Positions 32,713 to 51,469 of a stretch of 64,000 nucleotides of DNA are shown here, one piece after another (the first letter of the stretch is position 1; every line of letters begins with the position of its first letter). Location: positions 1 through 64,000 of the forward strand of contig JAJCXZ010000008.1 of the NCBI GenBank assembly GCA_029263175.1, written 5' to 3'. Source of the DNA: Acidimicrobiales bacterium (GTDB taxonomy: Bacteria > Actinomycetota > Acidimicrobiia > Acidimicrobiales > Aldehydirespiratoraceae). Below the pieces are notes generated by a model. It saw only the letters and a program-made list of their open reading frames with translations. It did no database searches and was not told where the DNA came from. A program made the position numbers and the translations under genes.

Positions 32713-34269
32713 TCAGTCCCACACCGCGGTGACCCACCATTGACCACCCTCGAGGGTGAGCATGCGGGCAACACCGTCGCTGGTGACGATCTGGAATCGG
32801 GCCTGGCGACGATGCGTTTCGGCGTCCCACCAACGCTCGTCGATCGGCCATGGACCTGCCCATGCCGCGATGTCAGCCCGACGTCGATCGTTGCGTAGTC
32901 CGGCTGGCGGCGCCGAGAGGAGGCCTCGGCCATCGACAAGCACCAGTTCACCGTCCTTGTCCACCACTTCAACGGCGCGGGGGGCACTGACCACCCGAGT
33001 GGGCGACGGGGTCGGCAACCCGCCTGGCCAGGGGGGCTGCTCCGGGTCGTCGAACAAGGTGCGACCCCGAAGTTCGACGGTGGCCGCGGGCACGAGCGAG
33101 AGTTGCTCGCCTGGATGACGCCCACCTCGCCGCTCGACCACACGTACGGCATCAGCGCCGAGCTGGCCTTGCAGACGAGCAGCAACCCTCGCCGCCCGTT
33201 CATCGACCTCCGTCTCTCCACCCCAGAACCCGAGCTGACGGCCTTTGGCCGCGATGAGGTCGTCGGGCACCAGCGACACCCGACTGATTCCACCGCTCGG
33301 CCGAGTGACCGCCGAACCGTTGAGCCAACCATCGAGTTGCCACCGCACACGATCAGCAACCGCTGCATCGGACAACGTGCCTTCGTGGCGCCAGAGCCGC
33401 ACCATCTCCTCACCGAATTCGGTTTCGGCTTCGATCGCCACCCGCACGCAGGTCACACCGTCTCGACCAAGGCGCTGATGGAGTTCGTCGGCCAGGCTGC
33501 GCGCCACAAAGGCGACACGATCAACCTGAAGCGCGGGCGGATCGATCTCGGCACTCACCGACCAGTCGACCGGTGGATACCGCGCATCGGGAGGACGCTC
33601 GTCGAGCCCCGATGAGAGCCGGTGAGCGGCAAGCCCTTCAGAACCGAAGCGAGCCAATACATCGGTGGCCGGCAACGCCGCAAACGCGCCGAGTGTGCGG
33701 ATGCCGAGCCGCACGAGCACGTCGGCCAACTCCGGCAGCTCGAGCACGGCCACACGCATCGGCGCCAGGAACTCGGCGACCTTCCCTTGGGGAATCAGGC
33801 GGGTTGGCTGAGCCGCCCGAGCCGCGAGCTCTGCCGCAAACGACCCGTCGGCAACACCGATACGCACTTCGGTGCGGCCGTTCAGCACCGTGCCCATGGC
33901 CTCACGAATGAGGTCAGCAACCTTCTCGTCGCCGCCGAAATAGCGAGACGGGCCACGGGTGATGACAGCACACGTGCCAGGACGAATGACCTCTATACGA
34001 GGCGTGATGTGGTCGAGAGTGCCGATCACCGGTTCGAACGTGCGGGCTTCGCGGGCCTCGTCACGCTCATGGAGTTGCAGATCAGCGCAGCGCGCTTGTG
34101 CCACTCGGCGGCGCAGCCCGCGCACGACGCCTTGCTCGCGAGCGCTCGGCGACGACGCCACGATCTTGTTGGCCTGGACGACGGCAATCGGCTCATCGAG
34201 CGGCGCCCCTGTGGCGACCACCGGCCAATCAGGACACCACGCCACAAGCGTGCGCACGGGGGCGACCAT
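32713..34269 (-). CDS. imuB: ImuB, Y-family polymerase-like mutasome subunit
   Basis: 518 aa, catalytically degenerate Y-family polymerase relative. The N-terminus (RTLVAWCPDWPVVATGAPLD) lacks the acidic pair of active polymerases, while VRLGIRTLGAFAALPATDVL matches the helix-hairpin region. The beta-clamp motif QLGFWG is at residues ~345-350, as known for ImuB. It links ImuA' and DnaE2 to the sliding clamp in SOS mutagenesis. It starts 3 bp after imuA' and therefore shares its LexA-controlled promoter. Confidence 0.93.
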   Translation of the reverse strand: MVAPVRTLVAWCPDWPVVATGAPLDEPIAVVQANKIVASSPSAREQGVVRGLRRRVAQARCADLQLHERDEAREARTFEPVIGTLDHITPRIEVIRPGTCAVITRGPSRYFGGDEKVADLIREAMGTVLNGRTEVRIGVADGSFAAELAARAAQPTRLIPQGKVAEFLAPMRVAVLELPELADVLVRLGIRTLGAFAALPATDVLARFGSEGLAAHRLSSGLDERPPDARYPPVDWSVSAEIDPPALQVDRVAFVARSLADELHQRLGRDGVTCVRVAIEAETEFGEEMVRLWRHEGTLSDAAVADRVRWQLDGWLNGSAVTRPSGGISRVSLVPDDLIAAKGRQLGFWGGETEVDERAARVAARLQGQLGADAVRVVERRGGRHPGEQLSLVPAATVELRGRTLFDDPEQPPWPGGLPTPSPTRVVSAPRAVEVVDKDGELVLVDGRGLLSAPPAGLRNDRRRADIAAWAGPWPIDERWWDAETHRRQARFQIVTSDGVARMLTLEGGQWWVTAVWD

Positions 34270-34272
34270 GGG

Positions 34273-34992
34273 TCAGCCCTGCGCAACGAGCGCCGGTGCT
34301 TCGATGTGCACGAGCTCTGGCCGGCCAAGTGGACCGGGTAGCAACAGATCGGCCGATCGAGGTCGAGCAGATGCCCCTCGTCCACCGCCACTCACCGTCA
34401 CCCGACGGGATTGCAGCACTCCATGACCACACCCGAGCCCCGACCATTCGCTCTCCATGACCTCGAGTTGCACGTCTGCACCGCTCGGCCAACGACCGTT
34501 GGTGCACACCAGCACCGATCCCCGCTCACGCAACCGGGCAGACAGGCGCCGAGCCTCGGCGTCACGCACCCGATGACGGGGTGCCACCAACACGATGTCG
34601 ACAGCACCAACGAGAGCAGCCACTGCCGAACTCCACGACGACGCCTCCGGGTCGACAACGAGCACCCGCTCGAGAGCAACACCCACTTCTTCAGCGGCCG
34701 CGAGCCCGAGATCTGGATCGCCAACCACAGCAACCCATGAACCAGCTGTCGACGCGGCGGCAGCAACAGCCAACGCCAACGCTGTCGACCCCGAGCCCGC
34801 AACCGACACCGTGGAGCCACGCCGCAAACCTTCAGGAAAAAGACCGGTCAACTCATCGAGAAGTGGCAATGTACGTTCCCGAGCCAGCGCCATCGGAGCG
34901 ACACGATCGCCAACGAGTTGTAGCCTGGCGCGCCGATCTGCGATCGCCTCGTCGGGGTCGACGACAGAAGGCAACAACTCCGCAGCAGCCAT
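34273..34992 (-). CDS. imuA': ImuA', RecA-like mutasome accessory protein
   Basis: 239 aa. It resembles a shortened RecA core: LFPEGLRRGSTVSVAGSGST, with a degenerate Walker A (GSGSTALAL), then AGSWVAVVGDPDLGLAAAEE and VDIVLVAPRHRVRDAEARRL. ImuA' works with ImuB and DnaE2 in DNA-damage-induced mutagenesis. Name given by position and family; E. coli lacks it. The ATG at 34992 has a long LexA palindrome immediately upstream. Confidence 0.88.
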   Translation of the reverse strand: MAAAELLPSVVDPDEAIADRRARLQLVGDRVAPMALARERTLPLLDELTGLFPEGLRRGSTVSVAGSGSTALALAVAAAASTAGSWVAVVGDPDLGLAAAEEVGVALERVLVVDPEASSWSSAVAALVGAVDIVLVAPRHRVRDAEARRLSARLRERGSVLVCTNGRWPSGADVQLEVMESEWSGLGCGHGVLQSRRVTVSGGGRGASARPRSADLLLPGPLGRPELVHIEAPALVAQG

Positions 34993-39274: not shown

Positions 39275-39385
39275 CTACGCACCGAACTCCTCTCGCCAGC
39301 CCAACGTCGCGCCGAGTCCGTTCAGATCGGGGTCGAGCAACACCTCGTGGTCATCGATCCGCTGGTTTCGACGAGAACCCGCTGA
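39275..39385 (-). pseudogene. HesB-like gene remnant E (middle part only)
   Basis: The minus-strand frame reads NQRIDDHEVLLDPDLNGLGA followed by TLGWREEFGA and a stop. RIDDHEVLLDPDL is nearly identical to RIDDHELLLDPDL of the complete HesB-like gene at 50237-50545; sequence before and after does not match it. It lies in the 155-bp gap between two unrelated genes and has no start codon of its own. Confidence 0.6.
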
Positions 39386-39388
39386 CGG

Positions 39389-40306
39389 TCAGTGAAAGAT
39401 GTCGAGGGGAAAGTGCAGCGACACGAGCCAGTTGGGCGCGTTGACGATCTCACTGATCCGCAGGTTGGCCGCGGTGCTGCACAACAGGTAAGCGTCGGCT
39501 GGTTCGAGCCCGCGATTCGTCCCGAGCCACTCGATCATGAAGCGGGTCGCATTGCGGGCATTCTCGTGGAGGTCGGGGCCGTGCGCAGTCGTGATGTGTA
39601 CTTCTGAATCCGACAGTGCGGGTCGGCTCCTTCGCCGGGCTTGGAACTCGGCGACGTCGAGGTCGCGGCGCACCGTCAACCGGACCGTCGCCGTCATGGG
39701 CGATTCCACAGCACTCCCGCAGACTTCTCCGTCGCCTTGCGCGCAATGACAGTCGCCGATCGAGAACAGGGCACCGTCGGCGTGAATCGGGAGCCATGCC
39801 GTCGAGCCACCCACGAGATCCCTCGTGTCGAGGTTGCCGCCGTTGGAGCGAGGGGGAAATGTGTCGAGGCGGCCGCTCTCGCGCGGCGCGACACCGATCA
39901 CGCCGGGAAACGGTTCGGCGGGAAGTTCGATTCCGCTCGCGAACCTGCAGATCGCACCGTCGAGCTCCCAGTGGTGAATGTGCGCGCAGTCGAAGTCATC
40001 GGCCAACAACCCGAACTCTGGAAGGACGCCACTCCAGCCCCAACCCTTGTGTTCCATCTTCACGATGTCGACCTCGAGCGTGTCGCCGGGGCGTGCACCC
40101 TTGACGTAGATGGCCCCACTGAGGGCGTGCGCGAGAGTCGGATCGGCAGCGGCGTAGTCCTCGTCGGTCCATGTTGGTTTCACCTGGCCGATCGGTTCTG
40201 CGCACTCGACAACCACCACGTCGCCTGACTCGATCTCCAATCGGACATCAACCTCGCGATCCCAGTACGTGTGGGTGACATCGTCGCCGAGGTGGTGTTC
40301 TGTCAT
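39389..40306 (-). CDS. Acetamidase/formamidase family protein
   Basis: 305 aa. The family is shown by VVVECAEPIGQVKPTW, ALSGAIYVKGARPGDTLEVD, GWGWSGVLPEFGLLAD, FPGVIGVAPRESGRLDTFPP, GGNLDTRDLVGGSTAWLPIH and GDCHCAQGDGEVCGSAVE; the last carries the conserved metal-site region. These enzymes hydrolyse formamide or short amides to release ammonia. It stands alone on its strand. Substrate assigned by family only. Confidence 0.9.
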   Translation of the reverse strand: MTEHHLGDDVTHTYWDREVDVRLEIESGDVVVVECAEPIGQVKPTWTDEDYAAADPTLAHALSGAIYVKGARPGDTLEVDIVKMEHKGWGWSGVLPEFGLLADDFDCAHIHHWELDGAICRFASGIELPAEPFPGVIGVAPRESGRLDTFPPRSNGGNLDTRDLVGGSTAWLPIHADGALFSIGDCHCAQGDGEVCGSAVESPMTATVRLTVRRDLDVAEFQARRRSRPALSDSEVHITTAHGPDLHENARNATRFMIEWLGTNRGLEPADAYLLCSTAANLRISEIVNAPNWLVSLHFPLDIFH

Positions 40307-40452
40307 CGTGGCCCCTCAAGATGGTCGGCGTTCAAGCAGACATCGTGGATCGCCAGCGTATCCAGCTTCATGGCAGGCACTTCTTCACGAAGTTCGCTGA
40401 CGACCCTCGGCCAGACCATCCCGTAATCCGAGGTTCGTGCTGGCGAGTTGAG

Positions 40453-40872
40453 CTACTCGGCGGAACTGTCGTACTCCATGGCGAGGGCGGGGTTCCCACC
40501 GGGGTCTTCAAAGGCGATGAGGTGCCCTACGTGAGAGATGGTGAACTTCTCCATCAGAATGCGGCCTCAAGCGGCGAGGATCCGTTCGCTGACAGTGTCG
40601 ACGTCGTCGACGCCGAAAGTGCACTCGAACCCCAAGGTTGGTGCGTCGTCGAGAAGCTGCCGGCGCTGCTGGATCGCACCCATCGGCGCTGCTCCGGTCC
40701 CGTCCAAGATCTGCACAAATCCGCGAGGCCCGTAGTCCTGGAACTGCCAACCAAAGACAGATCCATAGAACACCTGGGTGGCATCGACGTCATCGGTATT
40801 GATAGCGGAAGTTGGGTCAAACGTGGGCTCATTGGTCCCATCGTGAGAATCGAATTCTCGCCACCGGGACAC
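40453..40872 (-). pseudogene. VOC (glyoxalase/bleomycin-resistance-like) gene broken by a premature TGA
   Basis: Minus-strand frame MSRWREFDSHDGTNEPTFDP, then INTDDVDATQVFYGSVFGWQ typical of the VOC domain, reaching DTVSERILAA and a TGA at 40567-40569. The same frame then continues GRILMEKFTISHVGHLIAFE and DPGGNPALAMEYDSSAE to a stop at 40453-40455. VOC proteins have a Gly-Gly where the TGA falls (AAGGRI), so GGA to TGA is the simplest explanation. A complete ~139-aa protein would otherwise result. Confidence 0.8.
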
Positions 40873-41248
40873 TCGCGTGCGGAGTTACTCCATTACGCAC
40901 CCACCCGGACGCGTTTCGCTACCGACACAGCCAGGTTGGGACTACGTCGTGTTCGCCCATACTGGTCTCTTCACCGCCCTTTACGGACTCTCGGGCTTGG
41001 ACCATTCCAGCGCATCGCGCACTTTGTGTGCCCGACGGGACAAGCATTCGGATCGAAACTGCGAGACGAACTGCGACCAGATGCCTCTACCTCGATGAAG
41101 GTCTCCACGTACTCGGGAACGAACTGCGAGTCGTCACCCTGACACCGCTGACCCGTGAGCTCGTCTCGCACGCAGTGTGACGCCAGTCCGGAGCAGCGAC
41201 CGTCGTTGCACACGGCCGAACCGTGGTCGACCGAGGTCGTCGAGATCT
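40873..41248. other. Noncoding gap before the tetR gene
   Basis: No convincing gene is seen. Frames on both strands are short and composition is less GC-rich than neighbours. Minus-strand fragments such as ESVKGGEETSMGEHDVV could be decayed coding sequence, but I cannot assign them to a family. Confidence 0.45.
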
Positions 41249-41278
41249 TGACTTCGGTCGGTCGAACGAATTAGTCTG
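41249..41278 (+). promoter_or_regulatory. Candidate tetR promoter with overlapping palindromic operator
   Basis: TTGACT (41249-41254), an 18-bp spacer, and TAGTCT (41273-41278) form a plausible -35/-10 pair. The spacer together with the last -35 base (41254-41271) is an imperfect 18-bp palindrome, TTCGGTCGGTCGAACGAA, 14 of 18 positions symmetric. This is the usual place for a TetR-family autoregulatory operator. Confidence 0.5.
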
Positions 41279-41292
41279 TAACCGGAGGACAC

Positions 41293-41925
41293 ATGGCCAG
41301 AGTTGCTACTAAAAAGGTCGAGGCAACTCGGATCGGCCTCTTGGACGCGGCGATCGATGTGTTGAAGACAGACGGCTATGCGGGCCTGACAACTCGGGCG
41401 GTCGCTAGGACGGCTGGTGCGCCGATGAGCCAGATCCAGTACCACTTCGGTTCGAAAGAAGGACTGGTATTGGCTCTCTTCGACTACATGAATTCTCAGC
41501 TCCTCGAACGCCAGAGCGCCATGTTCCTCGACCCCGGCCTGAGCTTGTCCGAGCAGTGGGATCTGGCGTGCGACTATCTGGACGACGACCTGGCGTCGGG
41601 GTATGTAAACGTTCTGCAGGAGTTGTCGGCGGCCGGATGGACGAGCCCTGAAGTGGGAAGGGTCATTGGCGAGGGTCTGCTGGGATGGGTTGAGCTATTG
41701 CGCGGGCTCGCCCAGACAGCCATCGAACGCCATGGGTCGCCCGGCCCGTTGACCGCCGACGACATCGCGGCGCTGGTCTGTAGCAGCTTCCTCGGTGCGG
41801 AGTCGATATTGCTGCTCGGTCTGGAGGAGCGCGGCGCTCCTGTTCGTCAAGCTCTACGGCGATTCGGCGGGATCATCGAGAAGCTCGAGGAAAACCAGGT
41901 CGAAGTAGCGCGCGGGGAAGGTTGA
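41293..41925 (+). CDS. TetR/AcrR family transcriptional regulator
   Basis: 210 aa. The N-terminal helix-turn-helix is ARLTTRAVARTAGAPMSQIQ-like (GLTTRAVARTAGAPMSQIQY, then HFGSKEGLVLALFDY), the TetR signature. The C-terminal ligand-binding domain is helical (LLERQSAMFLDPGLSLSEQW, LGWVELLRGLAQTAIERHG). GGAGG lies four bases before the ATG. It is the first gene of a close-packed set of four, so it probably represses its own operon through the palindrome in its promoter. Confidence 0.9.
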   Translation: MARVATKKVEATRIGLLDAAIDVLKTDGYAGLTTRAVARTAGAPMSQIQYHFGSKEGLVLALFDYMNSQLLERQSAMFLDPGLSLSEQWDLACDYLDDDLASGYVNVLQELSAAGWTSPEVGRVIGEGLLGWVELLRGLAQTAIERHGSPGPLTADDIAALVCSSFLGAESILLLGLEERGAPVRQALRRFGGIIEKLEENQVEVARGEG

Positions 41926-41928
41926 CCC

Positions 41929-44034
41929 ATGCGTGCGAGGCTGCCGAGCACCGAGGGTTCGATCGATCGGAGCGGAGTCGCTATCCACTACGAGACCTAC
42001 GGGTCAGGCGAGCACACGATTGTGTTCGTCCCGACCTGGTCCCTTGTGCATTCGCGGGCGTACAAGGCTCAGATCCCCTATTTCAGCCAGCACTTCCGCT
42101 GTATCACCTGGGATCCTCGCGGCAACGGCAAGTCGGACCGCCCAGATGATCCGGGGGCGTATCGCCTGAAAGACTATGTCGACGATGCCCTGGCGGTCAT
42201 GGACGCGACATCCACACAACGGGCGGTCATGTTCGGCTGGTCACTGAGTGGCATGGTCGTTGCCGCTCTCGCGGCATACCACGGCGAACGAGTCCAGGCC
42301 GCAATCACCGTCGGCACCAACTCGCCTGTCGTGCCGACCTATGAGTACAAGACCTACTCAGCCTTCGACGCCGACCTTGCTCAGAGCGATCCCCAAGGTT
42401 GGGAGAAGTACAACCGCACATACTTGTCCAGTAACTATCCGGACTTCGCCGACTTCTTCATCCGTGAGATCTTCACGGAACCACATTCCACCAAGCAGAT
42501 CGAGGACTGCATCGGTTGGGCCGCAGAGACCAATGCCGAGGTCATGATTGCGACCATGGACGCCGACGATCCGGACGACCTTGTTCTTGACGAGGCCGCC
42601 TATCGACGCATCGACTGTCCCATGTTGTTGATTCACGGCGAGCAGGACACGATCGCGCCGGTAGCGGTCTCGGAACAGATCGCGGAGTTGGCCGGCGGCG
42701 AACTCGTGATCATTCCTGGCAGCGGGCATGCCTCACACGCTCGAGTTCCTGCTCGCGTCAACACCACCATGCGAGACTTTCTCGCGAGGCATCTCGGTAC
42801 ATGGGCACCCAAGCGGCGTCCATCAAGCGGCCGAACCAAGAAGGCGCTCTACCTGTCGTCGCCCATTGGACTGGGCCACGCCCGTCGCGACTTGGCGATA
42901 ACTCGCGAACTGCGCCTGCACCATCCCGGGCTACAAGTCGACTGGTTGGCCCAGGATCCGGTGACCCGCTTTCTCGAGGCACATGGCGAACGGGTCCACG
43001 CCGCGAGCGCTGTCCTTGAAAACGAGTCCACTCACATCGAGAGCGAAGCAGGCGAGCACGACCTCAACGCCTTCCAAGCGATCCGCCACATGGACGAGAT
43101 CCTCATCGCCAACTTCATGACGTTCCAGGAGGTACTCGAGCAGGAACCCTACGACCTGGTCATAGCCGACGAAGCCTGGGATGTCGATCACTATTGGCAC
43201 GAACACCCTGATCTCAAGAAGGCGCAGATCGCGTGGCTCACCGACTTCGTTGGGTGGGTACCTATGCCCGAAGGAGGCTGCCAAGAGGCACTGCTCACCG
43301 CCGACTACAACGCGGAGATGATCGGCCACGTCGAAGACCATCCCCAGCTCCGCGATCGAGCAATCTTCGTGGGCAATCCCGGCGACATCGTCGCGCTCGA
43401 GTTCGGCCCGGACCTGCCCGCCATGCGCGAATGGATCCCTGACCATTTCGACTTCTGCGGCTATGCGCTCGGCCACCATCCTGACCAACTCGAACCGCGC
43501 CAGGAACTGCGCCACCAATTCGGCTGGGACGACGACGAGAAGATCTGCGTTGTCACCGTCGGCGGTTCAGGAGTCGGTTCCAGCCTCATTGAGCGAGTAC
43601 TCGCCGCGTATCCCATAGCCAAGCGCCAAGTGCCTGAGTTGCGGATGATCCTCGTCACTGGGCCACGTCTCGACCCCGCTTCGTTCATACTCCCTTCGGG
43701 CGTCACTGCCCACGGATTCATCCCGGATCTCGACCGCCTCCTGGCCGCATGTGACCTTGCCGTAGTGCAAGGCGGACTCACGACGACGATGGAACTGGCC
43801 GCCGCAGGCACTCCTTTCCTGTACTTCCCTCTCCGCAACCATTTCGAACAGAACGTGCACGTGGCCCACCGACTCGAGCAGTACGGGGCCGGTCGCAAGA
43901 TGATCTACGACCAAAGCGATCCGGACCACATCGCACACTGCATGCTCGCTGAACTTGTCTCACCACGACAACCACGCCCAGTCGAGAGCGATGGAGCATC
44001 CAGAGCTGCAGCCATGCTCGCTGAGCTGCTCTAG
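41929..44034 (+). CDS. Fusion of alpha/beta hydrolase and UGT/MGT-like glycosyltransferase
   Basis: 701 aa. Residues ~10-285 are an alpha/beta hydrolase with oxyanion-side WDPRGNGKSD, nucleophile elbow GWSLSG (Ser ~105), LLIHGEQDTIAP and catalytic-His region GSGHASHARVP. Residues ~305-701 are a GT-B glycosyltransferase: ALYLSSPIGLGHARRDLAIT, FVGNPGDIV, AHGFIPDLDRLLAACDLAVV and the donor-site LTTTMELAAAGTPFLYFPLR with NHFEQNVH. Both halves seem complete. The enzyme may glycosylate and hydrolyse or esterify one hydrophobic substrate; no substrate is indicated. It starts 3 bp after the TetR stop. Confidence 0.85.
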   Translation: MRARLPSTEGSIDRSGVAIHYETYGSGEHTIVFVPTWSLVHSRAYKAQIPYFSQHFRCITWDPRGNGKSDRPDDPGAYRLKDYVDDALAVMDATSTQRAVMFGWSLSGMVVAALAAYHGERVQAAITVGTNSPVVPTYEYKTYSAFDADLAQSDPQGWEKYNRTYLSSNYPDFADFFIREIFTEPHSTKQIEDCIGWAAETNAEVMIATMDADDPDDLVLDEAAYRRIDCPMLLIHGEQDTIAPVAVSEQIAELAGGELVIIPGSGHASHARVPARVNTTMRDFLARHLGTWAPKRRPSSGRTKKALYLSSPIGLGHARRDLAITRELRLHHPGLQVDWLAQDPVTRFLEAHGERVHAASAVLENESTHIESEAGEHDLNAFQAIRHMDEILIANFMTFQEVLEQEPYDLVIADEAWDVDHYWHEHPDLKKAQIAWLTDFVGWVPMPEGGCQEALLTADYNAEMIGHVEDHPQLRDRAIFVGNPGDIVALEFGPDLPAMREWIPDHFDFCGYALGHHPDQLEPRQELRHQFGWDDDEKICVVTVGGSGVGSSLIERVLAAYPIAKRQVPELRMILVTGPRLDPASFILPSGVTAHGFIPDLDRLLAACDLAVVQGGLTTTMELAAAGTPFLYFPLRNHFEQNVHVAHRLEQYGAGRKMIYDQSDPDHIAHCMLAELVSPRQPRPVESDGASRAAAMLAELL

Positions 44035-44088
44035 TGGTCAAGGCGGCATGTCGAACAGTGCTAGCTATCCAAAGAAGGGGCCATCGCA

Positions 44089-44456
44089 ATGACAACCAAA
44101 GCCAGTGCTGATAGGAAGGTCCTTGTCGGGCTCACCCACGGAAAAGACGAACCCGAGAACCTGCTCATCGCATACCTCATGGGGGTCGAGGCGCTCCGAG
44201 CCGGAAAAGAGGCAATGATGGGGCTGACCAAGGACGGAATCGAAATCGCCGCCGAAGGCTTCGCGTCCCAGGTGGAACTCCCCGGCGCCCTCTCGATCAC
44301 CGACCTTCATGAAGAGTACGTCGATGCTGGCGGGCGCTTCTTGGTGTGCCCGGTCTGCGTGGCTCGAAGAGGCCCGCTGGACACCGAACGCCGAAGTCAG
44401 CGGCCCCGGCTGTGCACGAATACGCAGCGGGGGGCTCACTGACCTTCAGCTACTGA
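44089..44456 (+). pseudogene. DsrE-family gene with two frameshifts
   Basis: The frame from ATG 44089 gives a DsrE-like fold: RKVLVGLTHGKDEPENLLIA, YLMGVEALRAGKEAMMGLTK, and RFLVCPVCVA, with a CxxC. Near 44370 homology moves to the next frame (ARWTPNAEVSG), and near 44405 to the third (APAVHEYAAGGSLTFSY) ending at TGA 44454-44456, the normal C-terminus of the family. Two single-base insertions or sequence errors explain this. Read uncorrected, the frame ends at 44442. DsrE proteins are sulfur carriers or small NAD-like binding trimers. Confidence 0.78.
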
Positions 44457-44474
44457 CTCTCAAGGAGACGAACC

Positions 44475-45488
44475 GTGGAGCTCATCACCGACGTTCGAGA
44501 ATTGACGCACATTGCGTACGGGTTCAAGGCAGCCAAGGCCATGTTGTCGGCGCTCGAGTTGGGTGTGTTCGAGTGCCTGAAGGACGAGCCCGGTTCTCTC
44601 GATCAGGTCGCCGTGGCGACAGGGCTGGCAGAAAACCGCCTGGAAACATTGCTAACCGCCCTGGTCAGCCTCGGCCTGCTCTCGAAAACGGGCGACCTCT
44701 ATGAGAACGCGCCAGCGGTGCAAACGTTCCTCGTGTCATCGCAGGCGACGTATCTCGGCGACTACCTGCTACTTCAGACCGACAGGTTCCTGTTCCCGGC
44801 ATTTGTCGAACTCAGCGAAGTGCTACAAGGGCACGGCGCGGGAACGGCCTGGGGTGAGTATCAAGACCTGATGGCAGACCCAGCCGTCGCGGCCGAGTTC
44901 AGCCGAGGCCAACACGCCGGGTCGTTGGGCCCAGCCGCCGCGCTCGCCAGGAAGACCGACCTGGCCGGCCGCACACGGCTGCTCGACGTCGGCGGGGGGA
45001 GCGGCGCATTCACGATCGCTTGCTGCAACCGCAACCCATCACTGCAGGCGACGATCCTCGACTTTCCGAACGCTCTCGGAGTCGCTCGTGAGTTCGTCGA
45101 AAGCGCGGGACTCGGCGAACGAGTGGACCATTTCGCCGGGGACGCCCTGAATGCAGAATGGCCCGATGGCCATGACGTCGTATTGATGTCGTTCCTCGCG
45201 AGCGCTGTCAGCGGCGACACAATCGGTCCGTTGTTCCACAGAGCTTTTGCCGCTCTGCCCGCGGGTGGGCTGCTGGTCGTTCATGACTTCATGGTCGATG
45301 ACGATCTGACCGGACCCGCCGACGCCGCGCTGTGGTTCTTGAGCTGCATGTTCAACAGCGCTGACGCGCGGGCGTTGACCCCTTCGCTGATCACCGACCA
45401 CATGATCGACGCCGGGTTCGTTCATGCCGAAGTCCAGCCGCTCATACCCGACCTGACGTGCGTTGCCAGTGCGCTCAAGCCCGGTTGA
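44475..45488 (+). CDS. SAM-dependent O-methyltransferase (acetylserotonin/BchU/TcmO type)
   Basis: 337 aa. The N-terminal ~90 aa is a winged-helix dimerisation domain (ALELGVFECLKDEPGSLDQV, RLETLLTALVSLGLLSKTGD). The methyltransferase domain has RLLDVGGGSGAFTIACCNRN (motif I, ~170), TILDFPNALGVAREF, and GGLLVVHDFMVDDD. This layout is that of plant/bacterial small-molecule O-methyltransferases. The catalytic His of classical members is not obvious, so other acceptors are possible. AAGGAG eight bases before the GTG is a good Shine-Dalgarno site. It is the last intact gene of the tetR cluster. Confidence 0.88.
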   Translation: MELITDVRELTHIAYGFKAAKAMLSALELGVFECLKDEPGSLDQVAVATGLAENRLETLLTALVSLGLLSKTGDLYENAPAVQTFLVSSQATYLGDYLLLQTDRFLFPAFVELSEVLQGHGAGTAWGEYQDLMADPAVAAEFSRGQHAGSLGPAAALARKTDLAGRTRLLDVGGGSGAFTIACCNRNPSLQATILDFPNALGVAREFVESAGLGERVDHFAGDALNAEWPDGHDVVLMSFLASAVSGDTIGPLFHRAFAALPAGGLLVVHDFMVDDDLTGPADAALWFLSCMFNSADARALTPSLITDHMIDAGFVHAEVQPLIPDLTCVASALKPG

Positions 45489-45584
45489 TCTAGCCCGGCG
45501 CGGCCGTGACGCGACGTGGGCGCGAGTGCTGCTGTGAGAGGGATCTACCGAAACCAGGCGCAACTGCTGAAGGGAGTGCAAATC

Positions 45585-45647
45585 ATGACTAACGATCTGA
45601 AGGTCGATGCCGAGCTGCTGCGAGCCGAGGTACGCCAGAAGTACAAG
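45585..45647 (+). pseudogene. 5' stub of a second methyltransferase-like gene
   Basis: Twenty-one codons from ATG 45585, MTNDLKVDAELLRAEVRQKY then K, with AGGGAG upstream. This resembles the N-terminus of arsenite-methyltransferase-like SAM methyltransferases. At 45648 homology stops abruptly and a minus-strand HesB-like remnant begins, so a deletion has joined two truncated genes. The frame runs on to 45728 but that extension is antisense to the remnant and not meaningful. Confidence 0.5.
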
Positions 45648-45746
45648 ATCGAGCAACACCTCATGCCCGTCGATCTGACGGCGGATGTAGCCGTCGACGC
45701 GACGGCCCTTCGTTCTGGCATCAACTGACACCTCGAACCACCCTCA
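45648..45746 (-). pseudogene. HesB-like gene remnant D (UGA-to-middle part) with retained hairpin
   Basis: Minus-strand frame: TGA (45746-45744), then GWFEVSVDARTKGRRVDGYI and RRQIDGHEVLLD, ending at the junction with the methyltransferase stub. It aligns with GKKFEVSVDTRTKGRRLDGY of the complete gene; differences are largely synonymous or conservative. The in-frame UGA is kept (one codon closer to FEVSVD). The GGTGTC-AGTT-GATGCC hairpin at 45717-45732 is kept with wobble pairs. Upstream of the UGA no homology is left. Confidence 0.7.
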
Positions 45747-45958
45747 AACCCCTCATATCTGGAACCCGCCCGCATGTACCTGATTGAGCGGGTGCTAGAC
45801 CGCGGTTGCGTGTGATTGTGGGCGTCTGACCTGAGTGCCAACGAGGCCGCGTCCGGCCCGTCTTATCCGATTGCCACACAACCCAGCCCTCCGAGGTCCT
45901 CGATACGAACGTCCTGATCTCGCGACGGTTTTGCGCGCTACGTTGCGACTAAGAGGGT

Positions 45959-46486
45959 GTGATCACAGTGCGGCAACCGACGACTGCGAATGCCGAGCGG
46001 CTCCAGACCGTGTATCGGACCACATTCGCGGAGCTGTCGGGCTACGTGCTCGTTCACACCAGTGGCGATCGTGAGCTCGCTGAGGATCTGGTGTCCGAGA
46101 CCTACTTCCATGCGGCTCGCCGAGCCCAACAGGGCCGGGTCGAGGAAGTGACTATCGGTTGGCTGAAAACTGTTGCCCGGCGACGGCTGCTCGACCACAT
46201 TCGACGCGAGATCAGCCTCAGGGGACGTGCCGACCGGCTGAAGAACGAGGTTGCCTCAGCACGTTCCGAAGAGATTCCCGATCGGTCTGAACTGTCGATG
46301 GTCTACGAGGCGCTCGACACTTTGCCGAGCGATCATCGCCTGGTTCTGGTCCTGAACCACCTTGATGGACTGCGAGTGCGGGAGATCGCCGAGATCATCG
46401 AACGCAGTCCGGATGCCACCGAATCGCTGCTTCGTCGCGCTCGCAGCGGTTTCAGGGCGGCCTATCGGAGTATGAACGATGACTGA
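45959..46486 (+). CDS. ECF-type RNA polymerase sigma factor
   Basis: 175 aa. Region 2: LSGYVLVHTSGDRELAEDLV followed by SETYFHAARRAQQG and TIGWLKTVARRRLLDHIRRE; region 4: ALDTLPSDHRLVLVLNHLDG and EIAEIIERSPDATESLLRRA. The GTG start has AGAGGG close upstream. The stop overlaps the next start by 8 bp, exactly as at 2978-2985. It is more similar in style to the factor at 2446 than to that at 26384. Confidence 0.88.
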   Translation: MITVRQPTTANAERLQTVYRTTFAELSGYVLVHTSGDRELAEDLVSETYFHAARRAQQGRVEEVTIGWLKTVARRRLLDHIRREISLRGRADRLKNEVASARSEEIPDRSELSMVYEALDTLPSDHRLVLVLNHLDGLRVREIAEIIERSPDATESLLRRARSGFRAAYRSMNDD

Positions 46487-48014
46487 CGACGATCTTGATC
46501 AGACCTTGGGGCGGGCTGCCTCAGCAGGGCGGTTGTCGTCTCGGTTTGAAGAAGAGCTGCTGCTACGTCTGTCTTCATCTGCGTTCGAAACCGACGACCA
46601 GATGGAGGCTGGGAGCGGAAGCGACGTGGTGGTCGTTCTCGACGAGCCTCCGGGTCGCCGGGCTGGACGGGTCACACTCCTCGTCGCAGCGGCAGCGATC
46701 GTGGTGGCTGGTGTCGGTGGCGCCATCGCGCTTCGGGCAGGTGATGGTTCGACGACGGTAGAGACCGACTCCGTTGACTCGCAGGTGGAGGCAGACTCCA
46801 TGACTCCAGACATCGTGCCTCAGCCGCGCCCGTCCGGTACGAGGGGTGACACGCTGGAGTGGGAGCTCGGCGCCACCCCGGGTGACCCGAGCGGTTTGGT
46901 CCAGCTGATGAGTGACGGCAAGACGCTCTACTGGATAGGTAACCGCATATACAGCTCCGTTGAGGGGAAGACGTGGACTGAGGTCGAACTCGATGGTGGC
47001 TCTGTACCCGACCTGGTTGGACAAGGGATGGTCGACGCCGTGTGGGCTGGCCAGCTGGTGGCCTCAGAGGCCAGCGGAGCGAACGTTCGTGTGGAGATCG
47101 CGGGCATCGACGGGTCCTTGCGGACTGCCACACTCTCCCCCCGAGTCGACGGTGACGCGACCACGATGGTCGGTGTCCACGGCGCTCGTGCGACTATTGG
47201 CCCGCGCGGTGTCGTCGTTGCGGCGCGGCTGAGTGTGCTGGACTTCGGTCCGCTGATTGTCGAGGTGCTCGGCATCGATGCCGGCTTGGTCGAGTCGATC
47301 CACCTAGACGACGACGGCGTGAGCGAGACGTTGGTGGTCCAGCTGCCCACTGGTTCCGAACGGATCCGGCTCCTTGACCACGGAATCGTTGACTCGCACG
47401 ACCTGGCGATGGCACCGACCGGGCCCATCGGATGGCACACCACCGACGGCACCAGCTGGAGGCTGATTCCGACCGTCGGCCCCTTCACCCCCGGGGACCA
47501 CACCGAGGTGAGTGTCACCGCGACCACCGCTGGTTTCGTCGCCGTTGACACCATGGGCCAGGGTTGGTTCTCGACGGATGGGACGTCCTGGCCCGAGATC
47601 GACGGCCAGACCGATCCGCTGGGCGGCAGCGATGTCATCGCGTGGAGCGGTCAGGCCCTGACGCTCGGACGCATCACGGGTCTCCAAACCATCAGCGACC
47701 ATGGGCTTGCGTCGCTGCCCTTGACCGACGCTGATGCCTGGTCGACATTCAATAGATCATTCGGGGCCGGCGAGGCTGGCATCGCCTATCTGGTCGACAT
47801 CGATCCCGACGCTGCGACCTTCGACATCGTCTACTCACCCGATGGCATCTCGTGGCAGCGACAGGCGCTGCCCGAAGGAATAGGCGATCTGTATTGCTGC
47901 TTCCTCGACGTCTATGGCGTTGTGGTCGGCCGCGAACAGGTGGCTGCACTCGCCGATGGCGACGACGGTCTCGAGCTGTGGCTCGCGACCCCGACCACCC
48001 AGGAGAACTCATGA
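46479..48014 (+). CDS. Membrane-anchored partner of ECF sigma factor, extracytoplasmic repeat domain
   Basis: 511 aa. A cytoplasmic part (~1-62, helical, SSRFEEELLLRLSSSAFETD) precedes a single helix (RVTLLVAAAAIVVAGVGGAI, ~64-84) and a beta-rich outer domain with SVEGKTWTEVELDG, TTDGTSWRLIPTVG, STDGTSWPEIDGQ and SPDGISWQRQALP. These DG-x-x-W repeats are also present in the 752-aa protein at 24136, so the two outer domains are related. Probable anti-sigma or sensor role from context. Confidence 0.77.
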   Translation: MTDDDLDQTLGRAASAGRLSSRFEEELLLRLSSSAFETDDQMEAGSGSDVVVVLDEPPGRRAGRVTLLVAAAAIVVAGVGGAIALRAGDGSTTVETDSVDSQVEADSMTPDIVPQPRPSGTRGDTLEWELGATPGDPSGLVQLMSDGKTLYWIGNRIYSSVEGKTWTEVELDGGSVPDLVGQGMVDAVWAGQLVASEASGANVRVEIAGIDGSLRTATLSPRVDGDATTMVGVHGARATIGPRGVVVAARLSVLDFGPLIVEVLGIDAGLVESIHLDDDGVSETLVVQLPTGSERIRLLDHGIVDSHDLAMAPTGPIGWHTTDGTSWRLIPTVGPFTPGDHTEVSVTATTAGFVAVDTMGQGWFSTDGTSWPEIDGQTDPLGGSDVIAWSGQALTLGRITGLQTISDHGLASLPLTDADAWSTFNRSFGAGEAGIAYLVDIDPDAATFDIVYSPDGISWQRQALPEGIGDLYCCFLDVYGVVVGREQVAALADGDDGLELWLATPTTQENS

Positions 48015-48901
48015 CCACAAAGCTGAAGTCGGCCACCATCCACATCAGCCATCCGCAGATGATGTTCGTGCTCGCCGGCATCGCGGTGGCCGGCCTGCTG
48101 GCAGGGGCTTGCTCGGCCACTGGCACGACCGCGACGTCAACCGCCGAAGAGGCCGACCCAGCAGAACTGGCAGAGCCGGTTGCGACTGCGCAGCCCGTCA
48201 CCCCGACGTTCGATGTGGACCCGGCGGGAGGACCTTGGGATCTGGTCGGCATCGGTGACAGTTTCATCGGCTGGTCGACGATCGCCGAGCAGTATGCGGA
48301 ACTCCTCGGCGAAGACCTCGGCATTGAGATCAACGTTGCCAAGATTGTCAACCCCACGACGAATCGGCTCGAATACTTGCGGACCAACGACGCTGCTCAG
48401 GACCTGCTGGCCGAGGCAGAGATCATCATCGTGCAGCCCCAACCGGGGCAGCCATCACTTGCGGCGTGGCGTCCCTATTTCGCCGGCGAGTGCGGCGGGG
48501 CCGATGATCAGGAATGCTTCCGAACGGCGCTCGCCGACTTCGACCTGTACATCGGAGAACTCTTCGACGAGATAATTGCGACTACACGCGATGACGCCGT
48601 CATCATCGCGACTCTGGTGGGAGCCTGGGGTGTGGCCGCGTTCAACCCGGGCATCGAGAAGGACGACCCGGAGGCTTACCGCATCCTCGTGGACCACGTC
48701 ATCAACCTGCAGCAGCTTTCTGCGGCTGCCGCGGCAGATCGCGGCATCGCCACAGTCGACGTCAGTCTCGCCTTCCACGGCCCTGACTACTACCAGCCCG
48801 CAGCCGAGGCCTACCTCCTGCCCGACCGGACTCATCCCTCCGATGAGGGCTCGCGTGTCGTTGCCGAGTTACTGCACGGCCTCACCGCCAGCGCGCCATG
48901 A
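48011..48901 (+). CDS. Secreted SGNH/GDSL-type hydrolase lipoprotein
   Basis: 296 aa. Signal peptide with lipobox (LAGIAVAGLLAGACSATGTT) then the SGNH core: LVGIGDSFIGWSTIAEQYAE (catalytic Ser in GDSF) and the C-terminal LLPDRTHPSDEGSRVVAELL (Asp-x-x-His). Such enzymes are esterases acting on acyl or acetyl groups outside the cell. Its ATG overlaps the stop of the membrane partner (ATGA) and follows AGGAG, so it is the third gene of a sigma-partner-lipoprotein operon and a likely target or component of the response. Confidence 0.85.
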   Translation: MTTKLKSATIHISHPQMMFVLAGIAVAGLLAGACSATGTTATSTAEEADPAELAEPVATAQPVTPTFDVDPAGGPWDLVGIGDSFIGWSTIAEQYAELLGEDLGIEINVAKIVNPTTNRLEYLRTNDAAQDLLAEAEIIIVQPQPGQPSLAAWRPYFAGECGGADDQECFRTALADFDLYIGELFDEIIATTRDDAVIIATLVGAWGVAAFNPGIEKDDPEAYRILVDHVINLQQLSAAAAADRGIATVDVSLAFHGPDYYQPAAEAYLLPDRTHPSDEGSRVVAELLHGLTASAP

Positions 48902-49072
48902 GAAGCGCTGACCAAACCTGAAAGCTCGCCGAGATTCTCCTCGCAGGAGCTCGAACGCGTTCTGATACCAATGGTCCGAGCGGTGACAGACCGCACAGAA
49001 CAAACGGTGGCATGGGAGTGCGAGCTGACGCAGATCGGGCAGTATCGAGTTGGCAAGCCGGACGAGCGGTAC

Positions 49073-49200
49073 TCAGATCAGTTCGATCGGACAAGCCGCA
49101 CCGTTGAGGCCATCCACGGGCGCGCCGAGCTTGCGGCCGAACAGGCCACCGCGGGTGATCGTCAGCTCAACCGGCAACTTGAGGAGATCCAGGCCGAGCG
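49073..49200 (-). pseudogene. HesB-like gene remnant B (C-terminal part)
   Basis: Minus-strand GLDLLKLPVELTITRGGLFG then RKLGAPVDGLNGAACPIELI and a stop at 49073-49075. It matches the last ~40 residues of the complete copy. Most differences are third-base synonymous; only GGV to GGL and GAA to GAP change residues. It begins exactly at the stop of the monooxygenase-like gene, so the N-terminal part was lost. About 20 bp beyond the stop are also shared with the complete copy. Confidence 0.75.
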
Positions 49201-49500
49201 TCAGACGTCGTCGTGGCCATCCAGGTTGACGATCCGAAGCGCCTGCGTGTCCATAAACGGCGCGAGCACGTCCATCAGCCCCGTCTCCATCCGCCAGGCG
49301 AGGTAGGCGTCGTAGTTGGCGCGCGTTGCCCACTTCTCCCACAGAACGATCCGATCCGGGTCTTCCTGGTCGCCATATGTCTCTATCGACTCGCAACCCT
49401 CGAAGGCGCGGGTGTCGACGAGCGCCGAGCGAAGCACGTCCAGCAGTTCCTTGCCTTTGCCCGGATTGCACGGAAACTCAACGATGGCCGTGTGAGACAT
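49201..49500 (-). CDS. Antibiotic biosynthesis monooxygenase (ABM) domain protein
   Basis: 99 aa: MSHTAIVEFPCNPGKGKELL, RAFEGCESIETYGDQEDPDR, IVLWEKWATRANYDAYLAWR. This is the dimeric ferredoxin-like ABM fold found in heme-degrading and quinone-forming monooxygenases and in stress proteins. An open frame extends upstream, but ATG 49500 gives the complete domain and has GAGGGG upstream. It is flanked by remnants B and C of the HesB-like gene, both on the same strand. Confidence 0.85.
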   Translation of the reverse strand: MSHTAIVEFPCNPGKGKELLDVLRSALVDTRAFEGCESIETYGDQEDPDRIVLWEKWATRANYDAYLAWRMETGLMDVLAPFMDTQALRIVNLDGHDDV

Positions 49501-49556
49501 GGGAAATCCCCTCAGAAGGTATGTGACGAAACGTATACGAGCGCCGAACATCTGTC

Positions 49557-49686
49557 GATCGGCTCGATGGGACGGGCCGCACCGTCGAGCCGGTCGACTG
49601 CTGCGCCGAGTTTTCGTACCGAACACGCCACCTCGGGTGATGGTGAACTCAACGGGCAGCTTGAGGAGATCCTGATCGAGCAACAC
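49557..49686 (-). pseudogene. HesB-like gene remnant C (C-terminal part, frameshifted)
   Basis: Minus strand: VLLDQDLLKLPVEFTITRGG followed by VFGT, then a one-base insertion and LGAAVDRLDGAARPIEPID in the next frame. It aligns with the complete copy over about 42 residues. The Cys of GAACPIEL is Arg here. No start or stop in the expected place remains. Confidence 0.7.
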
Positions 49687-49962
49687 CCCCGGCCCGATTG
49701 GCCGACCGACCGGATGAACAGACACGCGTTTTGGGCACGCCGAAGTCGACGAGCATCGCGGGGCACCCCTCGGTGAGGAAGATGATGCCGACCTCGGACC
49801 CGCCCATAAGTGCCGACATCGGGCGGCTGGAGCGTCGGTGAGGCGCAGGGCCCCTGGCTCTGCTTGGGTAGGCGCACGATTTTGTGAGAGGGAGCAAGTA
49901 TGAGCGACCAACCAGACTGAGGGATTAGGCCGGAAACGTATTGACCACTGGTTGTTGTCCTG
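49687..49962. other. Gap with possible decayed coding sequence
   Basis: No intact gene is seen. A minus-strand frame contains MSALMGGSEVGIIFLTEGCP followed by AMLVDFGVPKTRV, which reads like a protein fragment but is not assigned. The region lies between remnant C and a small membrane-protein gene. Confidence 0.4.
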
Positions 49963-50172
49963 ATGATGTTCGGGTGGTGGGCGCGGGCAACATATGAAGT
50001 CGGGCTGACCGCCATCATCATGGGCGTGTGGATCTTGATGGGGTCGGTGGCCGCAGCGACGTGGGTCGTGAACCGATGGAATCGGTGGTGGGTGTGGGGT
50101 GCCGTGTCCGTGGTGTTCGTGATCCTGGCCGCGGTCGGTTTGGAATTCATCACCATCGTCGAAGAGTTCTAA
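49963..50172 (+). CDS. Small membrane protein, two helices, unknown function
   Basis: 69 aa, MMFGWWARATYEVGLTAIIM. Two hydrophobic helices (~12-35 and ~44-62) are separated by a Trp/Arg-rich turn (VVNRWNRWWVW). The protein ends GLEFITIVEEF. Two adjacent ATG codons could start it. No Shine-Dalgarno site is obvious. Similar short two-helix proteins are frequent in actinobacteria, and nothing indicates function. Confidence 0.5.
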   Translation: MMFGWWARATYEVGLTAIIMGVWILMGSVAAATWVVNRWNRWWVWGAVSVVFVILAAVGLEFITIVEEF

Positions 50173-50236
50173 CTACTCTCGGTTCCGCCAGCTCATAACC
50201 GGGAATGTGGAGCGGGCACGCCGGACGAGCGTTACT

Positions 50237-50545
50237 TCAGATCAGTTCGATCGGACAGGCCGCGCCGTTGAGGCCGTCGACTGCCGCGCCGAGCTTTCGG
50301 CCGAACACGCCACCACGAGTGATCGTGAGTTCGACGGGCAGCTTGAGCAGATCGGGATCCAGCAGCAGCTCGTGATCATCGATCCGCTTGCGGGTGTAGC
50401 CGTCGAGCCGGCGACCCTTCGTTCTGGTATCAACTGACACCTCGAACTTCTTGCCTCAACCGAACGGTTCGAGCAGGTCGACAATGGCCGTCCCACCCTT
50501 GCGGCGAATGTTGGCCGCCGCCTTCTCGGTCACATGAAGTTCCAT
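50237..50545 (-). CDS. HesB/IscA-like protein, candidate selenoprotein with in-frame UGA (codon 30)
   Basis: 102 codons from ATG 50545 to TGA 50237-50239 if the internal TGA at 50456-50458 is read as selenocysteine. Before it: MELHVTEKAAANIRRKGGTA, then IVDLLEPFG; after it GKKFEVSVDTRTKGRRLDGY, TRKRIDDHELLLDPDLLKLP, VELTITRGGVFGRKLGAAVD, GLNGAACPIELI. The VTEKAAANIR start and VDP-x-L-like LLDPDLLKLPVELTI segment match the HesB/IscA fold, and the UGA is where the first conserved Cys of the iron-sulfur scaffold family lies (G-[C/U]-G). HesB-like selenoproteins are known in other bacteria. A hairpin of SECIS type follows. CAGGGT ten bases before the ATG fits a leaderless promoter. Alternative: a nonsense pseudogene, or a 67-aa frame from GTG 50440. 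Confidence 0.7.
50426..50441 (-). promoter_or_regulatory. Candidate bacterial SECIS hairpin downstream of the UGA
   Basis: On the minus strand GGTGTC-AGTT-GATACC forms a six-pair stem (one G-U) with a 4-nt loop. Twenty nucleotides separate the UGA from the loop, and the loop has G as its second base. These values fit the bacterial SECIS model as I recall it (loop 16-37 nt from UGA, a G among its first two bases). Confidence 0.55.
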
Positions 50546-50728
50546 AGCGGGTTCAACCCTGTCACGGTTCGTGCGATTCCCCAACCACCGAGACCGGTCC
50601 GTCCCCAGTTGAAACGGGGGTCTCACCCCACCGTTTGATTCTTCGACGTGTGGGGGCCGAAGCCCCCGGTTCTGACTCCATCGGCGCTGGCACGGCCAAC
50701 TTGAGACAGCGGAGTAGGGTCGGCGACC

Positions 50729-51469
50729 GTGAGTGCCCAAGGCCGAGCTGAGAAGAACAACGAACAATTCGACGAATGGATTCGCCACGCGAACCAGAGT
50801 GGCGAGACGCCGGCGATCCCAGCCGCCACAGTCATCGTGCTGCGCGATACCGACCAAGGTTTGCAGACCCTGATGTTGCGGAAGAACTCCAAGATCGCCT
50901 TCGGCGGTATGTGGGTCTTCCCCGGCGGCAAGATCGACGCCGACGACCATGACGAATCCGGGGATCTGATCGTCGCAGCACGGCAGGCCGCGGTACGAGA
51001 AGCCCACGAGGAGGCTCAGCTCGTAGTCGATGTCGAGTCGCTCGTGATGTTCGCCCACTGGATTCCGCCATCCATCGCGCCGAAGCGCTTCGCCACGTGG
51101 TTCTTTGCCGCCCGTGTTGATCACGCGCACGCCGTGATCGACGACGGCGAGATCGTGGAGATGGAGTGGACATCGCCGGCCGCCGCGCTTGCCCGACACC
51201 ACGAAGGCGACATCGAGATCGTGCCGCCGACATGGGTCACGCTCCACACCTTGCGGGACTACACAACCGTCGCCGAAGCACTCACCGCACTCGACGAGGC
51301 ACCGGCACGCCACTATGCGACCAAGGTCGGCAAGACGGACGAGGGTCGCATGGTGATGTGGCAGGGCGACGCCGCCTACGAGAGTGGTGATGGCAACACC
51401 GCGGGCGCCCGCCACCGCCTCCAGATGCTCGAATCGGGCTGGGTCTACGACGACTCGGGAGCTCTGTAA
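50729..51469 (+). CDS. Nudix hydrolase
   Basis: 246 aa. The Nudix box runs from FPGGKIDADDHDESGD to QAAVREAHEEAQLVVDV (GX5-insertion-REUXEEXGU type, with an extended loop), near residues 65-105. Nudix enzymes hydrolyse nucleoside diphosphate-linked compounds, including oxidised nucleotides, CoA or NADH; substrate not known. GTG 50729 follows TAGGGT by eight bases. The P-type ATPase gene begins directly after its stop. Confidence 0.87.
   Translation: MSAQGRAEKNNEQFDEWIRHANQSGETPAIPAATVIVLRDTDQGLQTLMLRKNSKIAFGGMWVFPGGKIDADDHDESGDLIVAARQAAVREAHEEAQLVVDVESLVMFAHWIPPSIAPKRFATWFFAARVDHAHAVIDDGEIVEMEWTSPAAALARHHEGDIEIVPPTWVTLHTLRDYTTVAEALTALDEAPARHYATKVGKTDEGRMVMWQGDAAYESGDGNTAGARHRLQMLESGWVYDDSGAL

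Follow-up and report, generated by a model that had tools for sequence, protein, structure and literature searches.

We found that a short minus-strand gene in the window (the whole stretch of 64,000 nucleotides analysed here) encodes, by a combined reading that we hold at a probability of roughly 0.93, a selenoprotein of the IscA/SufA fold in which UGA30 is selenocysteine (Sec), transcribed from a SigR/SigH promoter, and that the same gene anchors an insertion hotspot. Decoding of the TGA as Sec, and with it a genuine selenoprotein, appears near certain from the comparative evidence. The original prediction had proposed such a candidate, and it is now strongly supported by the conserved TGA, a covarying SECIS hairpin, the presence of tRNA-Sec, SelA and SelB, and a Cys homologue. 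The features of the gene are:

50237..50545, minus strand: selenoprotein gene, 102 codons, Sec at codon 30 and Cys at codon 97
50456..50458, minus strand: in-frame TGA at codon 30, read as selenocysteine (one per homologue; Cys column in L160)
50426..50441, minus strand: bacterial SECIS hairpin GGTGTC-AGTT-GATACC (covariation)
50555..50580, minus strand: SigR/SigH-type promoter GGAAT-N18-GTT, 9 nt before the ATG

The ATG lies at 50545 and the terminal stop, also a TGA, at 50239-50237, giving a product of 102 residues. When the coordinates were read again, the 102-codon frame, the UGA at codon 30 and the continuation to a stop were as first claimed, and the ORF list under table 11 contained only the 67-aa part 3' of the TGA, matching the earlier statement that the standard code leaves just this portion. 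A homologue was found in 22 of the 51 genomes of the same family, and every full-length family homologue (55-99% identity) carried exactly one in-frame stop, which was a TGA. A profile search of 395 Acidimicrobiia genomes returned 27 further homologues outside the family, each with a single in-frame TGA, together with one weak partial match containing two TGAs. Base-by-base reading of 25 of these 27 showed the TGA, the spacing and the hairpin unchanged, and the TGA occupied the identical site in all 45 sequences read. Since TGA, frame and hairpin recur in 22 family genomes and 27 further genomes of the class, their combination is not a product of chance. At a threshold of E<=1e-3, none of the class homologues (22 in the family and 27 others) had Cys at the Sec position. 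The alignment with Cys homologues that had been proposed as a check gave one clear case, L160, from another class of the phylum, which is a plain ORF with Cys at the Sec30 column (41% identity to the Sec30 protein over 88 columns, hhalign E 3e-14). The fact that L160 carries Cys in this column is the Sec/Cys pairing expected for a selenoprotein. Codon changes between close pairs were mostly synonymous both 5' and 3' of the TGA, and dN/dS between full genes was 0.13-0.18.

Judged by sequence, these genes form a putative selenoprotein lineage that is class-wide, Sec-only so far and previously unannotated, and that adds to a group of marine and environmental actinobacteria. In the literature we found no paper combining Acidimicrobiia, selenoproteins and SECIS; one pairing selenocysteine with Acidimicrobiia exists. 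Two other candidates were rejected: viral carriage of the gene, as the viral contigs held no relative of it, and matches to ECF sigma factors with 'one TGA', in which the TGA is the natural stop.

The hairpin begins 14 nt past the TGA and has G as its second loop base. Sequence, distance and loop G were thus as originally described, and the structure is conserved. In 44 of the 45 sequences the distance from the first base of the TGA to the stem is 17 nt, and in L113 it is 20 nt. Across 37 distinct sequences, 99.6% of cells were paired, compared with 21.6-66.7% in slid controls. Double (compensatory) changes were observed in 4 of the 7 SECIS pairs (G-C to C-G, G-C to A-U, U-A to G-C and G-C to A-U), several of them being synonymous codon changes; slid partners yielded at most one pair with double changes, and the shuffle control gave 0/500. 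In the proposed mechanism, SelB with Sec-tRNA-Sec would read this hairpin 14 nt after UGA30.

Three of the components whose presence was to be checked, tRNA-Sec, selA and selB, were found in the genome of the window. The tRNA-Sec scored 64 bits (cut-off 47) with anticodon tca, and selA (387 bits) and selB (296 bits) are adjacent genes, both above their curated cut-offs. We surveyed tRNA-Sec in 80 hand-chosen genomes, 49 with the selenoprotein gene and 31 without. It was above the cut-off in 41 of the 49, the remaining 8 being gene-bearing MAGs in which none was seen; of these, two reach a completeness of at least 95 or 90%, and the rest are fragmented or less complete. Since 20 of the 31 genomes lacking the gene also have tRNA-Sec above the cut-off, the selenoprotein gene is not what maintains Sec decoding.

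The assignment to HesB/IscA-like proteins held at the level of the fold and failed at the level of sequence. The selenoprotein had no match in Pfam, a PDB sequence search returned no relative, and the HesB-type models TIGR01911 and NF038090 gave no match even at E 10; the sequence link to HesB is weak. The sole NCBIfam match was NF041239, the 'CC/Se motif family (seleno)protein', which the window protein reached with 18.7 bits, below the cut-off of 40, and which all 17 family members scanned matched with scores under the curated cut-off (best E 6e-6). Only this one curated model recognises the gene, and at a score under its cut-off, so that automatic annotation likely misses it. The AlphaFold2 model (pLDDT 81) matched SufA in Foldseek (E 2.6e-4) and in structure comparison (VIA, Z 8.3, 83 aligned, rmsd 2.9). 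Good structural matches were SufA/IscA and almost nothing else, with all but one of the VIA rows listed being IscA/HesB-type or putative Fe-S biosynthesis entries. In the model the protein has an IscA-type scaffold; its sequence is distantly related to NF041239 and lies outside the HesB-like selenoprotein models.

Sec30 and Cys97 are the only invariant chalcogen residues in the family, and the three-Cys metal site (C..CxC) is absent. Fold order, with a weak pairwise alignment to the ErpA of the same genome, weakly suggests that Sec30 occupies the first conserved Cys position of the IscA/SufA fold (IscA Cys35); this ErpA-type protein is encoded separately in the genome. With the Fe-S carriers IscA, SufA and ErpA the protein shares the fold, but it lacks their C-terminal C-x-C pair and a Pfam match. 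With the HesB-like selenoproteins (TIGR01911, NF038090) it shares the IscA fold and a Sec near the first conserved Cys, but not the UxGP motif reported for them (PMC13188914). With NF041239 it shares Sec or Cys at the motif, and the Cys homologue L160 also matches that model (33.9 bits); however, the motif in the window protein is G-U-G rather than CC, and the C-terminal part has diverged. The homologues outside the family (L108-L132) carry Cys/His-rich C-terminal tails, for example HKHTAACRH, HAHGPG or DGSCNVC, in place of ACPIELI, suggesting metal binding.

The promoter motif GGAAT-N18-GTT, which corresponds to the SigH/SigR consensus (PMC10012870), was read at similar places and spacing in about 21 of the 22 family genomes, and upstream of only a few of the class loci outside the family. 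The genome encodes a SigR-like sigma factor that scores 245 bits, under the cut-off of 251.6. Transcription would probably start from this SigR/SigH (thiol-oxidation stress) promoter, which ends 9 nt ahead of the ATG, and the mRNA may perhaps be leaderless. Because of the promoter type, a role in thiol/metal redox stress is likely, and the predicted thiol-stress promoter gives the lineage a role that can be tested.

The original prediction placed the gene in an accessory region. This is correct, and the gene itself marks an insertion hotspot, with partial copies of its own 3' part downstream that had been missed. The features of the region are:

50237..50447, minus strand: 3' part of the gene that recurs downstream, from boundary X (gene nt 99) to the stop
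49557..49689, minus strand: partial copy f1, codons ~59-102, left end lost, 82% identity
49052..49189, minus strand: partial copy f2, about codon 65 to the stop, left end lost, 86% identity
45739..45757, minus strand: motif M (ATGAGGGGTTNACGCG-like), directly before copy f3 (alignment)
45647..45738, minus strand: partial copy f3, codons 34-64, left boundary at X intact
39323..39363, minus strand: partial copy f4, codons 53-66, at the distal edge, the point from which synteny with a congener is restored
39364..50236: variable region from the gene to the outermost partial copy (cargo listed by Pfam)
50729..51469, plus strand: NUDIX hydrolase gene, conserved flank
32716..34960, minus strand: homologues of imuB and imuA', conserved flank on the opposite side (end approximate)

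Throughout the family the gene sits between imuA'-imuB and a NUDIX-ATPase pair. In genus g9 its stop lies 20-150 nt from the NUDIX gene, which represents the empty site; in genus g6, 3.3-7.8 kb of other genes lie between the two, and in genus g1, that of the window, the gene and its inserts are inverted relative to the flanks. The flanking imuB/imuA' (window 32716-34960) are homologues of DNA-damage mutagenesis genes, and a LexA-box-like sequence, CGAACATATGTTCG, is found between imuA' and the selenoprotein gene in g9, with a variant in g6. Cargo at 39364..50236 includes an FmdA/AmdA-type hydrolase, an O-methyltransferase, an ECF sigma factor, a GDSL-like hydrolase and an ABM-domain protein, and the arrays across the family hold hydrolases, methyltransferases, regulators, SnoaL, glyoxalase and ABM proteins. 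No cargo is common to the arrays of G000 and its congener G019, though their flanks are 86% identical. Directly 3' of the ECF sigma factor gene, 46479-48014 encodes a 511-aa protein without a Pfam match that may be the anti-sigma factor of its neighbour. A small gene at 49963-50172, convergent with the selenoprotein gene, encodes a predicted membrane protein of 69 aa (GC3 0.83), also without a Pfam match. A near-perfect palindrome of ~47 bp (AACTGGCGGCA..TGCCGCCAGTT; L178, L179, L060:10244-10300, L026:3133-3194) occurs in more than 20 places in the congener G020, one of them directly 3' of its selenoprotein gene, and in the window's genome a copy of it abuts a truncated partial copy on contig C77.

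Besides the four partial copies in the window, others occur in genera g1, g6, g7 and g8; at 20 loci outside the family, copies of this kind were absent. All 12 aligned copies with an intact left end begin at X, that is at gene nt 99 (codon 34), which is nine nt past the TGA codon and lies immediately ahead of the SECIS hairpin; these copies include the whole hairpin. The same 12 are preceded by the ATGAGGGGTTNACGCG-like motif M (~16 nt) at near-constant spacing to X. Right ends reach the stop codon unless truncated. On contigs that contain the full gene as anchor, every partial copy lies downstream on the same strand, and in four genera unrelated cargo genes stand between the copies. A combined M and X model, run over the 51 family genomes, gave strong matches only at anchors joining at X and at M-bearing copies, and none in genomes without the selenoprotein gene. 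One copy lies off-array, on C77, and its flanks had no counterpart in congeners in an empty-site comparison. Two candidate explanations of these boundaries were rejected: M resembles the gene's own leader around GGTTGA only and lacks the GGAAT box, and an inverted repeat bounding the 3' part is not kept across genera.

The 5' and 3' parts of the gene disagree among congeners, with values of 0.88 (5') and 0.77 (3') for G000 and G019, and of 0.80 and 0.89 for G019 and G020. The distal G019 copy is closer to the 3' part of G000 (0.80) than to its own (0.74). This discord, together with the likeness of the distal copy, agrees with a model in which new units come in at the anchor and older 3' ends are moved outward. 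For copies compared with full genes, dN/dS was 0.08-0.29, near the full-gene values, as expected if each copy was once a working 3' end. An element-borne replacement 3' end, a fixed junction and an empty site in relatives, three marks of site-specific accretion, were found. Accretion through insertion at X is likely from these comparisons. In the four genera, small elements would have entered the gene time and again, always at the one point immediately 5' of the SECIS; each would have brought a new 3' half, and the displaced halves would be left downstream between cargo genes.

A dedicated site-specific insertion system is possible. Tentatively, we propose a cassette system whose landing site is the selenoprotein gene and whose units each have, at the start, a replacement for the 3' half together with its SECIS and, at the end, M. 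If this is true, insertion never breaks the selenoprotein, and the same-direction array resembles an integron without the integron integrase. A Sec-decoding signal would be carried within mobile DNA and, if the process is site-specific, the cassette-capture system would be an undescribed one. Among the Pfam matches listed for about 90 array cargo ORFs (one table giving the best 25 of 33 families) there was no recombinase; 10 tyrosine recombinases are encoded elsewhere in the window's genome. Reverse transcription from the 3' end, halting at a bound SECIS, was rejected as a source of the copies: it would stop on the 3' side, yet the copies contain the whole hairpin.

A real rival to such a dedicated system, if a somewhat doubtful one, is spread of the copies from a single truncated ancestor, through ordinary homologous recombination or tandem duplication. 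The 207 bp of shared sequence would suffice, and the cargo matches listed include no recombinase and the 51 genomes gave no integron integrase. However, four genera retain M and its exact spacing to X but not the rest of the flanking DNA, copies are confined to the downstream side on the gene's own strand, and cargo differs completely between congeners.

It is unlikely that the copies are functional short paralogues, starting from an ATG of their own inside M (M-R-G-x-R/P-x-FEVSVD...) and multiplied with neighbouring genes. By inspection, 11 of the 12 copies have M in their own frame, and GC3 is 0.82-0.84 in three copies. On the other hand, 3 of the 12 have a stop at codon 4 of the M frame, 3 lack the ATG, and others contain stops or frameshifts. 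One of those with a stop in the M frame, G019_f, nevertheless keeps the following 69 codons intact at dS about 1. The low dN/dS between copies and full genes (0.08-0.29) would suit short paralogues, but is equally expected of former functional selenoprotein 3' ends.

A chromosomal integron whose attI lies within the selenoprotein gene seems to us very improbable. In its favour are the smallness of the cargo units, repeated sites that all point one way, entry beside the anchor and the reappearance, now and then, of one cargo behind different copies. Against it, no TIGR02249 integrase scored above the cut-off in any of the 51 genomes, no attC-type core was seen by eye, and the right half that the sites have in common is coding sequence of 207 bp. 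That the TGA is a true stop or an assembly error in a decaying gene, with the 67-aa part or nothing translated, is scarcely credible, for while table 11 gives the 67-aa ORF alone and truncated copies of the same region lie nearby, the same TGA occurs in 49 genomes from independent assemblies, purifying selection acts on both sides of it, the SECIS covaries and the promoter sits ahead of codon 1.

The array that we attribute to accretion at the selenoprotein gene has likenesses to two known systems. Like chromosomal integrons, it has small cargo units and same-direction recurring sites adjoining an anchor, but no integron integrase scored above the cut-off and no attC was recognised by eye. As when genomic islands accrete at the 3' ends of tRNA or protein genes, the insert restores its target and old 3' ends stand in tandem downstream; here, in contrast, the units are small, their listed Pfam matches include no integrase, and what they carry is a 207-bp 3' piece of a selenoprotein gene together with its SECIS.
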